NCBI RefSeq assembly: GCF_000020965.1
Contig: NC_011297.1
Span: 1,894,525 to 1,958,524 of the forward strand
Length of the DNA stretch: 64,000 bases
Direction: 5' to 3'
From: Dictyoglomus thermophilum H-6-12
Lineage (GTDB): Bacteria; Dictyoglomota; Dictyoglomia; Dictyoglomales; Dictyoglomaceae
Position numbers and translations under genes: made by a program. The notes beneath the pieces are model-generated. The model did no database searches, had not been told where the DNA came from, and was given only the letters and a program-made list of their open reading frames with translations. Shown piece after piece: positions 5,135 through 9,763 of the stretch (position 1 is its first letter; the number at the start of each line of letters is the position of its first letter).

Positions 5135-5163
5135 AATTAAAAATGGTGAGGGGAAATTGGAAT

Positions 5164-6606
5164 ATGTCTTGGTGGCTAAAATATCCCACATTGATATTAT
5201 TAGAAGATATACAGAAAGTGACTAATATAGAGATACCAGAGAATATCAAAGAGATTAAAAATCATATCTTTAATATCCTAAAAGAAGAATTTATTAAAAA
5301 AAGCTGTGAAGTAATTACATGGAAAGAGAACACAGACAAAAAACTAAAAAATAATTATGCAGTAATAATAAATCCAGTATTTTTAGGAAAATTAGATGAG
5401 AAAATTGAAGAAGTATTAAAAAACAACAAAATCTCGGAGAAAAGCAAAGTTTTGAGGGAATATCTTCCTGAAGTAAATCCCCCTTTCGCTATTAGTATTG
5501 GAAGGGAAATATGTAAGAAATTAGGAATATTTCCCGAACTCCACCCTAATTTTATAAATTTAATATTTATTGAGGACAATATAAATTTTCACCTTTTATC
5601 TTCAAAAACAAAAATTCAATTCATAAGATTCCTAATGGCAAAATTAGGAGCCTTCAAGAATATTATTGTTCCCTATAAAAACGGAAATATTGCCCAAAAC
5701 AAAGTTATATTAGGAACATTAGAAGGAGGACATCCATCTTTAGACCTTAAAGAATTAGCAAAAAGGCTTATGGTTTTCGGATCTTGCAAAGAAGTAGGAG
5801 GTTATGAAGAGATAGATTGGGAGATAAAGAAAGAAATATGGCAAAACTCTAAAATTGTAAATAGCATGATAAACCTGGGGAATTTTTTAGGAGAAAAGAA
5901 ATTACTCTCTGAACCTGTAGAGATAAAGGATTTAGTAAAAGATGAAAAACTTCTAAAGCTTATCGTAAGACTTGTAAATTACTCACGTCAAGCAGAAGGA
6001 GCCTTTATAGCTTTTGAACCTGAAATAAAACCCCCTCAAGAGTTTAATCTTATGAATGGTATATTTATAGTTACCTGTTCAGGAAAATATGGTACAGTAA
6101 AAAGCAATCTATCTTACAAAGATTTAGCCCCCATAATTCCTCTCAAAAATGGAAAGGTGGGATTAATTAAAAAAGAAAAAGAAGAAAATCTTGGCCCCTC
6201 TGTGGAGGCAGAAGAATTCACATTACCTTTACTAAATATAAAAACAAAAATTGACCTCTATCCTCCCATAATAGGAGTTGTACACCTACATCGAGGATAT
6301 AAGATAAAACAGTTCTCTACAAAATTTTTCGAAATTCCCATAGATATAAAAGATTATCCTCCGGTAGGATGTGGGGTAGATCTAATGCAAGAAATGAGCA
6401 AATATGCCATGAAAAAGGCAGTAGAACTTTGGGAAGAGAAAAAGAAACTACCTTATTTTGCTTTATTTTATGTGCCTAACCATGGAACGAATATATTTAT
6501 ATTTCCAAAGGACAATCTCAATATTTATGAAGATCCCTTTTACTATTTCAAGGAAGCTATAAATTTGGAAGAGGTCGTTTTCATAGAAGATGTACCTCAA
6601 GTATAA
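5164..6606 (+). CDS. Uncharacterised conserved-looking 480-residue protein
   Basis: I do not recognise this family. It has no signal peptide or membrane segment and looks like a soluble, folded enzyme-sized protein. Notable clusters are GTLEGGHPSLDLKELAKRL, SRQAEGAFIAFEPEIKPP, GVVHLHRGYKIKQF and YPPVGCGVDLMQEMSKYAMK; the His-His-Gly-Tyr and Gly-Cys-Gly segments could be active-site or metal-binding elements. Two starts are possible. The ATG at 5164 has GAGGGG ten bases upstream and is used here. The ATG at 5143 lies eight bases after TATAAT and would add seven residues as a leaderless start. It is a single-gene unit divergent from icd. No function is proposed. Confidence 0.75.
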   Translation: MSWWLKYPTLILLEDIQKVTNIEIPENIKEIKNHIFNILKEEFIKKSCEVITWKENTDKKLKNNYAVIINPVFLGKLDEKIEEVLKNNKISEKSKVLREYLPEVNPPFAISIGREICKKLGIFPELHPNFINLIFIEDNINFHLLSSKTKIQFIRFLMAKLGAFKNIIVPYKNGNIAQNKVILGTLEGGHPSLDLKELAKRLMVFGSCKEVGGYEEIDWEIKKEIWQNSKIVNSMINLGNFLGEKKLLSEPVEIKDLVKDEKLLKLIVRLVNYSRQAEGAFIAFEPEIKPPQEFNLMNGIFIVTCSGKYGTVKSNLSYKDLAPIIPLKNGKVGLIKKEKEENLGPSVEAEEFTLPLLNIKTKIDLYPPIIGVVHLHRGYKIKQFSTKFFEIPIDIKDYPPVGCGVDLMQEMSKYAMKKAVELWEEKKKLPYFALFYVPNHGTNIFIFPKDNLNIYEDPFYYFKEAINLEEVVFIEDVPQV

Positions 6607-6677: not shown

Positions 6678-6706
6678 TTTACAAAATTGTTTCCTTATGA
6701 TATTAT
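6678..6706 (+). promoter_or_regulatory. Promoter of the ABC importer operon
   Basis: TTTACA (-35, 6678-6683) and TATTAT (-10, 6701-6706) each match the sigma-70 consensus at five of six positions with an ideal 17-bp spacer. The predicted start is near 6713, giving a leader of about 60 nt that begins almost at the 6719-6736 hairpin and ends with AGGAGGTG before the ATG. Confidence 0.65.
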
Positions 6707-6718
6707 TCTTTACACGAA

Positions 6719-6736
6719 GGACCTGGAGCATGGTCC
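6719..6736 (+). other. 5'-leader hairpin, inverted copy of the 3'-UTR hairpin
   Basis: GGACCTGGAGCATGGTCC can fold with GGACC/GGTCC as stem and an 8-nt loop; an alternative stem CTGGA/TCCAG (6723-6727 with 6734-6738) overlaps it. It should lie within a few bases of the mRNA 5' end. Its reverse complement recurs just after the stop codon (8620-8638) with 11 contiguous plus 5 matching bases. Confidence 0.5.
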
Positions 6737-6771
6737 AGATATAAATTTACCCCAAAACAGGAGGTGTAAAA

Positions 6772-8601
6772 ATGAGGGGTAAAGTTTTAGGGGTATTTTT
6801 AACAGTTTTACTTTTAACTCTCTTACTTGTACCTTCCACATTAGGACAGGTTTCTTTACCACGTAATGAGACCGTTTATACCGTTGGAGCTCTCTGGTCT
6901 GCAACCACTTATAGTTTATATGCACCATCTTCCACCTACGGTACTGAGCACTTCATGTATATGCCACTTTTCATCTACAGCAACATGAAAGATGGATGGC
7001 TTCCAGTACTTGCAGAGTCCTTCACAGCAGTTAACAAGAGAACACTAAGGGTAAAGATTAGAGATATTGCAAAATGGAGCGATGGAACACCAATAACTGC
7101 TGATGATGTAGTATTCACTTTTAATTGCACAAAAGAAGTAGGATTTGGACCTGGTAATGGATGGTGGGACTACATTCAAACCGTAAGAGCAATAGATGAT
7201 AAAACAGTAGAATTCGTAATGAGACCAGATGCTCAAAACTATGCATCCTTCTTAGGTTATGCTTTCACTACAAGGATAGTTCCAAAACATGTATACGAGC
7301 CTCTATTAAAGAAAGGAGTACAAGCAGTAAAGGACTTTCAAAATGATGATCCTGCAAAACAAGTAGTTTCTGGACCATACAAACTCTATTATGCAGATCC
7401 CAACATTGTAGTATATGGAAGAATAGACGATTGGTGGGGCAAAGCAGTATTTGGACTTCCTGTTCCTAAATACATTGCTAACGTAATTTACAGAGATAAC
7501 GCTGTAGCAAATTTAGACTTTGAGAAAGGAAATGCTGACTGGGCAGGGGTATTCATACCAGATGTAAGCTCTCTCTGGACTCAGAAGAAGCTCCCCATTG
7601 GAACCTGGTTCAAGAACAAACCATACTTCATGCCAGAGGGTGTTAATCTCCTCTACATTAGCTATTACAATCCATTACTTAAAGACCCTGCTGTAAGAAA
7701 AGCTATAGCTTATGCAATACCATATAAAGAAATGCTTGATAAGGCATACTTTGGTTATGGTAACCAGGCTCATCCATCAATGGTAATAGATGTGTTCGAA
7801 TCATACAAAGAATACATCGATCAAGCCTACGCAAAATATGTATGGGGTTCACCCGATGGAAAACCAAAGACTGATCTTAAGAAAGCAAACGAGATACTGG
7901 ATAAGGCTGGATACAAGAGAGGAAAAGATGGTATAAGAATAAGCCCAGATGGTAAGAGAATGGGTACCTTCACCATACAAGTTCCAAGTGGTTGGACTGA
8001 CTGGATGATGATGTGTGAAATGATGGCAGCAAACATGAGAGCAATCGGACTCGATGTCAAGACAGAATTCCCAGACTACTCTGTATGGTGGACCAGATGG
8101 ACTCAAGGAACCTTTGATTTCATCCTTGGATGGTCTGCAGGTCCTGGATTTGATCATCCATGGAACGTATACAGATTAGTATTAGACCCAGCCCTTTACA
8201 AACCATTTGGTCAAGATCAATATGGTAACTTTGAAAGATATAATAATCCAGAAGTTGGTAAGATCTTAGATAAGATTGCAGCAACTCTTGATCCAAAGGT
8301 AAAGAAGACACTATTCTATCAATTACAAAGAATAATCTACAGAGATCTACCAGCAATTCCACTCTTCTATGGTGCTCACTGGTACGAGTACAACGAGACT
8401 GTATGGACTGGATGGCCCAATGAGAGCAGACCATGGTGGTTCCCAGCTGCTCCTTGGAGCAACATGGCACTTCCTGTGCTCTTTGGTATAGCACCAAAAG
8501 GACAAACACCTAAAGTGCCAACTTGGGTAGAGTTAAAAGCAAAGGGTGGGCTCCTTATACCAACAAACGACGTTCTCAACGCATTAGCAAAAGCAAAATA
8601 G
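6772..8601 (+). CDS. ABC importer extracellular solute-binding protein, family 5
   Basis: This 609-residue lipid-independent secreted protein has an N-terminal signal peptide (hydrophobic 8-25, cleavage probably after LGQ or nearby). The mature part is of the DppA/OppA family: WSDGTPITADDVVFTFN is the SBP_bac_5 signature. The family binds oligopeptides, but in Thermotoga and relatives also cello-, manno- and xylo-oligosaccharides. The GH3 beta-glucosidase closing this operon favours beta-linked glucose oligosaccharides here. The mature protein is rich in Trp and Tyr, suiting sugar stacking. It has its own promoter, a strong AGGAGGTG site and a GC-rich terminator after it, so it should be made in excess over the permeases. 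Confidence 0.88.
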   Translation: MRGKVLGVFLTVLLLTLLLVPSTLGQVSLPRNETVYTVGALWSATTYSLYAPSSTYGTEHFMYMPLFIYSNMKDGWLPVLAESFTAVNKRTLRVKIRDIAKWSDGTPITADDVVFTFNCTKEVGFGPGNGWWDYIQTVRAIDDKTVEFVMRPDAQNYASFLGYAFTTRIVPKHVYEPLLKKGVQAVKDFQNDDPAKQVVSGPYKLYYADPNIVVYGRIDDWWGKAVFGLPVPKYIANVIYRDNAVANLDFEKGNADWAGVFIPDVSSLWTQKKLPIGTWFKNKPYFMPEGVNLLYISYYNPLLKDPAVRKAIAYAIPYKEMLDKAYFGYGNQAHPSMVIDVFESYKEYIDQAYAKYVWGSPDGKPKTDLKKANEILDKAGYKRGKDGIRISPDGKRMGTFTIQVPSGWTDWMMMCEMMAANMRAIGLDVKTEFPDYSVWWTRWTQGTFDFILGWSAGPGFDHPWNVYRLVLDPALYKPFGQDQYGNFERYNNPEVGKILDKIAATLDPKVKKTLFYQLQRIIYRDLPAIPLFYGAHWYEYNETVWTGWPNESRPWWFPAAPWSNMALPVLFGIAPKGQTPKVPTWVELKAKGGLLIPTNDVLNALAKAK

Positions 8602-8619
8602 TCTTAGGAAGATTTTAAT

Positions 8620-8638
8620 GGACCATGCTCTAAGGTCC
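8620..8638 (+). other. 3'-UTR hairpin, inverted copy of the 5'-leader hairpin
   Basis: GGACCATGCTCTAAGGTCC folds locally as GGACC/GGTCC. It is also the near-exact reverse complement of 6719-6736 (GAGCATGGTCC pairs along 11 bases, GGACC along 5). It sits 18 nt after the binding-protein stop codon and 21 nt before the terminator. Confidence 0.5.
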
Positions 8639-8659
8639 TAATGTAAAGCCAGAAATATA

Positions 8660-8690
8660 AACCCCCCGGGCTTTCCGGGGGGTTATTTAG
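8660..8690 (+). terminator. Attenuating terminator between binding protein and permeases
   Basis: CCCCCCGG (8662-8669), loop GCTTT, CCGGGGGG (8675-8682), extended by two A-T pairs, is followed by TTATTTAGTTA. It is exceptionally GC-rich for this DNA. Lying inside the operon, it should end most transcripts after the binding-protein gene and let a fraction continue. Confidence 0.85.
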
Positions 8691-8731: not shown

Positions 8732-9763
8732 ATGCCAAAAACAGCCATGAAACCCTTCCTAAAGTACATAGGTCGAAGACTCTTCTTCCTAATTCTCACC
8801 TATTTTGTAGCAATCACTATAATATTCATACTACCAAGAGCTATTCCAGGAAATCCATTAGCAGTTCTTCTCCAACGTATAGCAGTACAGGGAGCAAGCA
8901 ATCCAGAAACTATATCCAACGTACAAAAAACCATGATGGAAGAATTTGGGTTTAATAAACCTCTTCATGTTCAATACTTAAGTTTTTTAGGACGTCTTTT
9001 CAGAGGAGATCTCGGAACATCTATTCACTACTATCCAAAAAAATGTATCGATGTTTTAGCTCCCTTTATTCCATGGACTTTATTCTTGCTGATACCTGCA
9101 ACCCTAACTGCCTGGATTATTGGAAACACCCTTGGAGCAGTAGCTGGAAATAGGAGAGGGACATGGATTGATAATATAGTATTAAACTCTTCTCTCGTAA
9201 TTAGCCAAATCCCCTATTATTGGTTAGGAATGCTTCTCATTTATTTATTCGCTGTGAAATTAAATATTTTTCCCAACCAAGGTGGATACTCTCAAGGACT
9301 AATTCCAAGTTTTTCCCTTACTTTTATTCTTGATGTACTTTATCATTACATTCTTCCATTCCTCTCCATAGTAATTGCTGCTATAGGAGGCTGGGCTATT
9401 GGAACAAGACTCCTGGTTATATATGAATTAGATGCAGACTACACTGTTTTTGCTGTAAATTTAGGTATGAGAGACCGTACTGTTTTCAAATATGTATTTA
9501 GAAATATATTGTTACCCCAGATTACTGGTTTAGCCCTTAACTTAGGTTCTGCCCTGGGTGGTGCCCTAATAACGGAGCTTATTTTTAACTATCCTGGAAC
9601 AGGATACATTCTTTTTAGAGCCTTAAGTACCCTTGATTATCCATTAATTCAAGCTATTTTTGTCATCTTAATTGTGGCTATATATTTAGCCAATTTTATT
9701 GTTGATTTTGTATATGCCATTGTGGATCCAAGAATAAGATTAGGACAAGGAGAGGGAAGCTAA
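8732..9763 (+). CDS. ABC importer permease, DppB-like
   Basis: This 343-residue inner-membrane permease has about six hydrophobic segments. It starts with the DppB/OppB-type N-terminal helix (YIGRRLFFLILTYFVAITII). The cytoplasmic EAA-type loop that docks on the ATPases is near NLGMRDRTVFKYVFRNILLP. It forms the channel with the next permease. The ATG follows AAAGGAGG at 11 bases; the first codons (MPKTAMKPF) might be skipped for the next ATG at 8747. It is separated from the binding-protein gene by the terminator and from the next gene by one base. Confidence 0.9.
   Translation: MPKTAMKPFLKYIGRRLFFLILTYFVAITIIFILPRAIPGNPLAVLLQRIAVQGASNPETISNVQKTMMEEFGFNKPLHVQYLSFLGRLFRGDLGTSIHYYPKKCIDVLAPFIPWTLFLLIPATLTAWIIGNTLGAVAGNRRGTWIDNIVLNSSLVISQIPYYWLGMLLIYLFAVKLNIFPNQGGYSQGLIPSFSLTFILDVLYHYILPFLSIVIAAIGGWAIGTRLLVIYELDADYTVFAVNLGMRDRTVFKYVFRNILLPQITGLALNLGSALGGALITELIFNYPGTGYILFRALSTLDYPLIQAIFVILIVAIYLANFIVDFVYAIVDPRIRLGQGEGS

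Follow-up and report, generated by a model that had tools for sequence, protein, structure and literature searches.

The locus and its predicted transcript

The operon studied here lies in a 64,000-nt stretch of DNA (the window) from Dictyoglomus thermophilum, whose genome is a single contig of 1.96 Mb. Its first gene, for a solute-binding protein of the SBP_bac_5 family, precedes two genes for permeases, two for ABC ATPases, and one for a GH3 glycosidase, a gene order that indicates an Opp-type transporter, plausibly with oligosaccharides as substrate. The features of the first part of the operon are listed in Table 1; the start of transcription and the level of expression are predictions. 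A search of the whole window against Rfam gave no family at gathering score.

Table 1. Features around the binding-protein gene (positions in the window)
Feature	Position	Strand	Remarks
Promoter, TTTACA-17-TATTAT	6678..6706	+	Predicted; conserved in alignment of relatives
5' arm of long-range duplex	6718..6737	+	5' end of predicted transcript
Shine-Dalgarno of binding-protein gene	6759..6764	+	From sequence; not in duplex
Solute-binding protein gene (SBP_bac_5)	6772..8601	+	609 aa; first cistron
Shine-Dalgarno-like AGGAA of mini-ORF	8606..8610	+	AGGAG/AGGAA in G001 and G003
Mini-ORF, ATG GAC CAT GCT CTA AGG TCC TAA	8618..8641	+	MDHALRS*; 7 codons
3' arm of long-range duplex	8619..8639	+	A8632 bulged
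Intrinsic terminator/attenuator	8660..8684	+	-21.6 kcal/mol; between binding-protein and permease genes
Permease gene (BPD_transp_1)	8732..9763	+	Second cistron

Upstream of the operon, positions 5143–6606 encode a 487-residue protein without a Pfam match, and a related frame also precedes the operon in three relatives (G001, G002, and G003). Orthologs of the binding protein occur, at 42–52% identity, in MAGs of Thermoproteota and Bathyarchaeota (L078–L090), which points to possible transfer between thermophilic bacteria and archaea.

Two complementary arms flank the binding-protein gene

The original prediction placed mutually complementary elements at the 5' end of the transcript and past the stop codon of the binding-protein gene. 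Both were located, the 5' element (GGACCTGGAGCATGGTCC) at 6719–6736, about 5–6 nt into the transcript predicted from the promoter, and the 3' element (GGACCATGCTCTAAGGTCC) at 8620–8638, between the stop codon and the terminator. In six Dictyoglomaceae genomes, the promoter end and the 5' element are 10–13 bp apart. The complementarity, first described as 11 plus 5 bases, is longer: A6718–A6737 and T8619–T8639 form 20 pairs, including one G·U pair, with one bulged A and a separation between the arms of ~1.9 kb. The 5' arm is untranslated, ending 34 nt 5' of the first start codon and ~21 nt 5' of the Shine-Dalgarno sequence of the binding-protein gene.

The genome was covered by pattern searches and by selected stretches. 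The pattern GGACC-N6–11-GGTCC has two sites in the 1.96-Mb genome, which are these two elements (the reversed control pattern has 10), and this search gave no further pairs near other binding-protein genes. When a 22-nt leader probe was scored against the + strand of the window, the best site was the 3' element, at -37.9 kcal/mol, compared with -27.9 kcal/mol for the runner-up and a background mean of -11.0 (SD 3.4). Compared with shuffled sequences, the duplex between 5' leader and 3' flank had a z-score of -7.5, the most extreme among 146 genes, which were taken from the window and from 17 further stretches that carry ABC operons (runner-up, -4.8). An ungapped background scan of the window gave scores of at most 45 on the + strand, versus 51–52 for the duplexes of G005 and G003.

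Several candidates were discarded. An outer extension of the arms in the window (CTTTACA/TGTAAAG) is attributed to chance: G001 does not have it, and it probably precedes the start of the transcript. The elements do not appear to be dispersed repeats or to mark a regulon: the hairpin pattern has no further copies, and every other CCATGCTCTAA site that was checked falls within coding sequence or on its opposite strand, away from gene starts. Paralogous binding-protein operons in the same genomes have no comparable duplex, and the moderate z-scores seen there reflect G-rich Shine-Dalgarno sequences meeting C-rich terminator arms. Most binding-protein genes in both complete Dictyoglomus genomes (L149–L165) carry a strong terminator directly 3', before the next gene, and an unusually G-rich Shine-Dalgarno sequence 5' (AGGGGG, GGGGGAGG) that is complementary to the C-rich arm of the terminator; this form, reminiscent of icaR (discussed later), is probably an effect of composition. 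A separate sequence, CCATACTCTTA, occurs three times in G001:C1:110496-110936 with an exact spacing of 215 bp, apparently as a tandem repeat.

The original prediction also had each element folding locally. Hairpins of this kind are indeed predicted at 37 °C, with -7.8 and -6.3 kcal/mol. The sister genus, however, lacks their GGACC/GGTCC stems and has weak local folds or none, and at 75 °C, near the growth temperature of these organisms, the hairpins are predicted to melt. At that temperature, the local folds have 0 to -3 kcal/mol, versus -16.6 to -20.9 kcal/mol for the duplex between the arms. In predicted folds of whole transcripts (~2 kb) from five genomes, the long-range helix has a probability near 1 at both 37 and 75 °C, in calculations that ignore ribosomes on the first cistron (1.8 kb) and underprice very long loops.

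The two arms covary in related genomes

Orthologs were fetched from the same genus (97, 89, and 92%) and from a sister genus (62–66%). The arms, given as 5'/3', are GGACCTGGAGCATGGTCC/GGGCCATGCTCTAAGGTCC in G001 and GGGGACCAAGAGCGTGGTCC/GGACCACGCTCTTGGTCTCT in G003; in the sister genus, they are AAGGGTTTAGTGCATGGTCCC/GGGACCATGCACTAAATCCTT in G004 and AAGGATTTAGTGTATGGTCCC/GGGACCATACACTAAATCCTT in both G005 and G006, where the complementarity is perfect over 21 nt. The 5' arm of G004 was predicted from the 3' arm and was then found on another contig with the matching base change. For G002, the contig ends before the 3' arm, which is predicted to be similar to GGACCATGCTCTAAGGTCC, and a candidate on contig C213 was rejected as a coding coincidence.

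A further example comes from G041 (the unclassified MAG SKW194), placed by the protein tree beside the sister genus with an SH-aLRT of 84. Its first locus has the 3' side alone (ATGAAAGGCTATGCACTAAGACCC). A search of this genome with the complement of the permease start led to G041:C58:932-944, a match with two mismatches in the leader of the binding-protein ortholog, ~55 nt upstream of its start and on a different contig from the 3' side. The resulting arms, GAGGAGGGCTTAGTGCATAGagCC/GGCTATGCACTAAGaCCCTTCCTC, have a perfect 12-nt core that is extended on both sides. With 32 such sites on both strands of 2.1 Mb, the chance expectation for a leader of ~100 nt is ~0.001. An earlier pattern match in this genome, L166, turned out to be the 3' arm read on the opposite strand. 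Where the two halves of the ortholog (contigs C58 and C155) overlap, they differ at several amino acids, which suggests that the MAG is misassembled or mixes strains.

Both sides of the duplex can be read in seven genomes, which represent only a few independent lineages and contain six distinct duplexes (G000, G001, G003, G004, G005/G006, and G041). In a fixed register of 21 positions, all 120 readable cells pair, without a mismatch, although this register was set manually and its gaps were put at bulges (one in G000/G001 and several positions in G041), which favors the complete pairing. Sliding the register by 1–4 positions leaves 20–46% of the cells paired. Eleven pair positions have changed on both sides, four on one side, and six are invariant, and the double changes fall on several branches: in G003 alone, in G005/G006, in G041 alone, and between the genera. 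The six cells that deviate from Watson–Crick pairing are all G·U on the mRNA strand and would be A·C on the opposite strand, which points to RNA of that sense and not to a DNA site. The duplexes within species have energies of -38 to -46 kcal/mol and were not beaten by 1000 shuffles each (G001 was tied), whereas most combinations of arms across genera are far weaker. The orientation of the arms is identical in all genomes.

Since both ends change together across seven genomes, the mRNA appears to fold back on itself, and we consider it highly probable from these comparisons, few as the sequences are, that leader and 3' arm pair in the same mRNA. By the predicted folds, the duplex would also form in the cell. 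The proposed circularizing duplex gains strong support: in the six relatives, the arms differ in sequence and stay complementary, and wherever both sides can be read, neither element was kept without the other. Among 34 more distant orthologs with readable flanks and 32–61% identity (Thermotogota, Archaea, Bacillota, and others), no duplex stood clearly above the level of shuffled sequences; one marginal 14-mer was seen (L096).

The 3' arm covers a translation start

In G004–G006, the permease gene begins with the 3' arm, which starts 1 nt past the AUG (ATG AGG GAC CAT ACA CTA AAT CCT, encoding MRDHTLNPF...) and has AGGAGG upstream, and in G041 the arm likewise falls on the permease start (MKGYALRPF...). 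The paired stretch corresponds to approximately codons 2–8 of the permease in the sister genus and G041, where the intergenic space is short and contains no terminator. In Dictyoglomus, the paired start belongs to the mini-ORF, which is kept as MGHALRS* in G001 and MDHALGL* in G003 and which ends 15–18 nt from the terminator stem, whereas the permease starts 70–87 nt past the beginning of this stem. Relative to an AUG with a Shine-Dalgarno sequence, the duplex begins at a nearly constant +2 to +5. The mini-ORF matches the N-terminus of the sister-genus permease, M(R)DHALNPF, a likeness suggesting that the terminator and second start may have been inserted into, or lost from, the ancestral arrangement.

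Large excess of binding protein over permease from one operon is usually ascribed to terminators, stem-loops, or differential decay. The Thermotogota orthologs show the order stop codon, terminator, permease, without the duplex. The outgroup thus has the terminator only, the sister genus and G041 have the duplex only, and Dictyoglomus has both; from this distribution, duplex and terminator would seem to serve the same end, namely to keep permease below binding protein.

Possible roles of the duplex

In the mechanism that we propose, the 5' end of the mRNA (about nt 5–25 of the message) would be a cis-encoded antisense segment. With the binding-protein gene transcribed, the leader would pair with 20–21 nt at or just past the AUG of the next ORF, and initiation at this start would be blocked by the helix. 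The Shine-Dalgarno sequence of the binding-protein gene, ~21 nt outside the helix, would remain free, allowing normal translation of the first cistron. For the sister genus and G041, the simplest reading is that pairing of the first codons blocks 30S initiation at the first permease gene and so reduces the ratio of permease to binding protein. In Dictyoglomus, the start affected would be that of the mini-ORF directly before the attenuating terminator, and no direct influence on translation of the permease is apparent, because the paired start is not that of the permease. Here two readings remain: the duplex may control translation of the mini-ORF, linked somehow to the attenuator, or the same helix, which would also bring together the 5' and 3' ends of the terminated binding-protein message, may seal these ends. 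The stop codon of the mini-ORF is probably too far from the terminator stem for a stopped ribosome to disturb it. Judging from arm placement and covariation, we regard it as somewhat probable that the leader acts as a clamp on the start that follows the binding-protein gene and so holds permease output below that of the binding protein. We infer formation of the duplex in cells and repression of the downstream start, as well as the purpose of the duplex, be it stoichiometry, sealing of the message, or both. A broader version, in which the operon controls itself by a 5' terminus that is antisense in cis to the second start and sets the stoichiometry, while the leaders of plentiful terminated binding-protein messages also act in trans to silence the permease starts of other copies and the Dictyoglomus mini-ORF relays to the attenuator, is speculative and would be rather unlikely to hold as a whole.

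The original prediction saw the pairing as a way to stabilize a highly expressed mRNA. This stands as one possible role and not the only one, because the 3' element is a translation-initiation region, a feature that the prediction had missed. Genes for both RNase III and RNase J are present, so that cleavage or protection of ends are possible consequences of the duplex. If the helix served primarily to seal the ends of the binding-protein mRNA against RNase J-type decay that depends on the 5' end, the start codon would be incidental; the position of the 5' arm ~5 nt from the predicted transcript start, the Dictyoglomus 3' arm just before the terminator, and the persistence of the pairing in Dictyoglomus, where the permease starts outside it, all agree with such a role. 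However, the 3' arm in the sister genus and G041 lies inside the permease start and not at a 3' end, other binding-protein genes in the same genomes lack such a duplex, and the fixed register with AUG and Shine-Dalgarno would go unexplained, so this account seems to us unlikely, if still worth considering. Less probable again is a site at which RNase III would cut the binding-protein message off from the remainder of the operon, comparable to the stems flanking rRNA. A duplex of 20–21 bp is long enough for this enzyme, and the 5'–3' pairing of icaR is cut by RNase III (PMC3868564), but a cut would take away the start region of the sister-genus permease, and in Dictyoglomus the messages are already parted by the terminator.

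Readings at the level of DNA fare worse. The arms had alternatively been taken for two copies of one palindromic protein-binding site, and a pair of operators for one transcription factor, possibly with DNA looping, would suit the operator-like position of the 5' arm right after the promoter and the GGACC...GGTCC half-sites in each Dictyoglomus arm. Yet the sister genus loses this symmetry (the G005/G006 3' arm, GGGACCATACACTAAATCCTT, has no GGACC/GGTCC dyad) and keeps the 21-nt reverse complementarity, the differences between arms are compatible with G·U on the mRNA strand only, which DNA recognition would not need, and the genome contains no further copies; we therefore disfavor this explanation strongly. 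An invertible segment, with the arms as inverted recombination sites around the binding-protein gene, is scarcely credible: two genomes do have perfect 21-bp inverted repeats around the gene, and recombination could homogenize the arms, but a single orientation is found in all genomes, the arms differ by bulges or G·U-compatible bases in five of the six distinct duplexes, and the sites overlap start codon and leader in a fixed register.

Comparison with known systems

With complementary and covarying arms, the duplex has the hallmarks of a long-range intramolecular mRNA duplex in general. In the icaR mRNA of Staphylococcus aureus, a 7-nt segment of the 3' UTR, UCCCCUG, covers the Shine-Dalgarno sequence of its own gene (PMC3868564). 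There too, the two end regions of a bacterial mRNA pair with a whole gene between them, an initiation region is targeted, and the duplex can be a substrate for RNase III. Here, in contrast, a leader arm of 20–21 nt is complementary to the initial codons of the frame that follows; the Shine-Dalgarno sequence of the first gene is free, and no 3' segment lies on it.

As described in PMC11339067, the Min Jou long-distance interaction of the RNA phage MS2 involves 7 nt at a distance of ~300 nt: the start region of a downstream gene is shut off by pairing with a segment further upstream in the same polycistronic RNA. The downstream initiation region is paired in our case as well, over 20–21 nt and a distance of ~1.9 kb. 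In that account, the upstream arm of MS2 lies in the translated coat gene and is opened by ribosomes, whereas the arm described here lies in an untranslated leader and so should stay closed while the first gene is translated. In hok mRNA of plasmid R1, as described in PMC3868564, the two ends of one mRNA also pair, the 3' end repressing the message's own initiation so that the full-length form is silenced and a 3'-truncated form is active; the 5' end studied here is instead aimed at a downstream start.

The window, most other Dictyoglomus binding-protein genes examined, and the Thermotogota orthologs have an attenuating terminator after the gene for the binding protein. Such terminators act on transcription, and the duplex is an additional feature that occurs without a terminator in the sister genus and G041. 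A literature search, incomplete in coverage, gave no match for a leader antisense to the next start in an operon. What is new compared with the systems above is the location in the leader together with a target in the downstream cistron, the longer helix, and a first Shine-Dalgarno sequence that is left free. The covariation reveals a leader-encoded antisense to the next start that is predicted to stay paired at ~75 °C, a temperature at which short hairpins should come apart; it offers a target with two arms and suggests that other operons be scanned for leader segments antisense to internal start codons.
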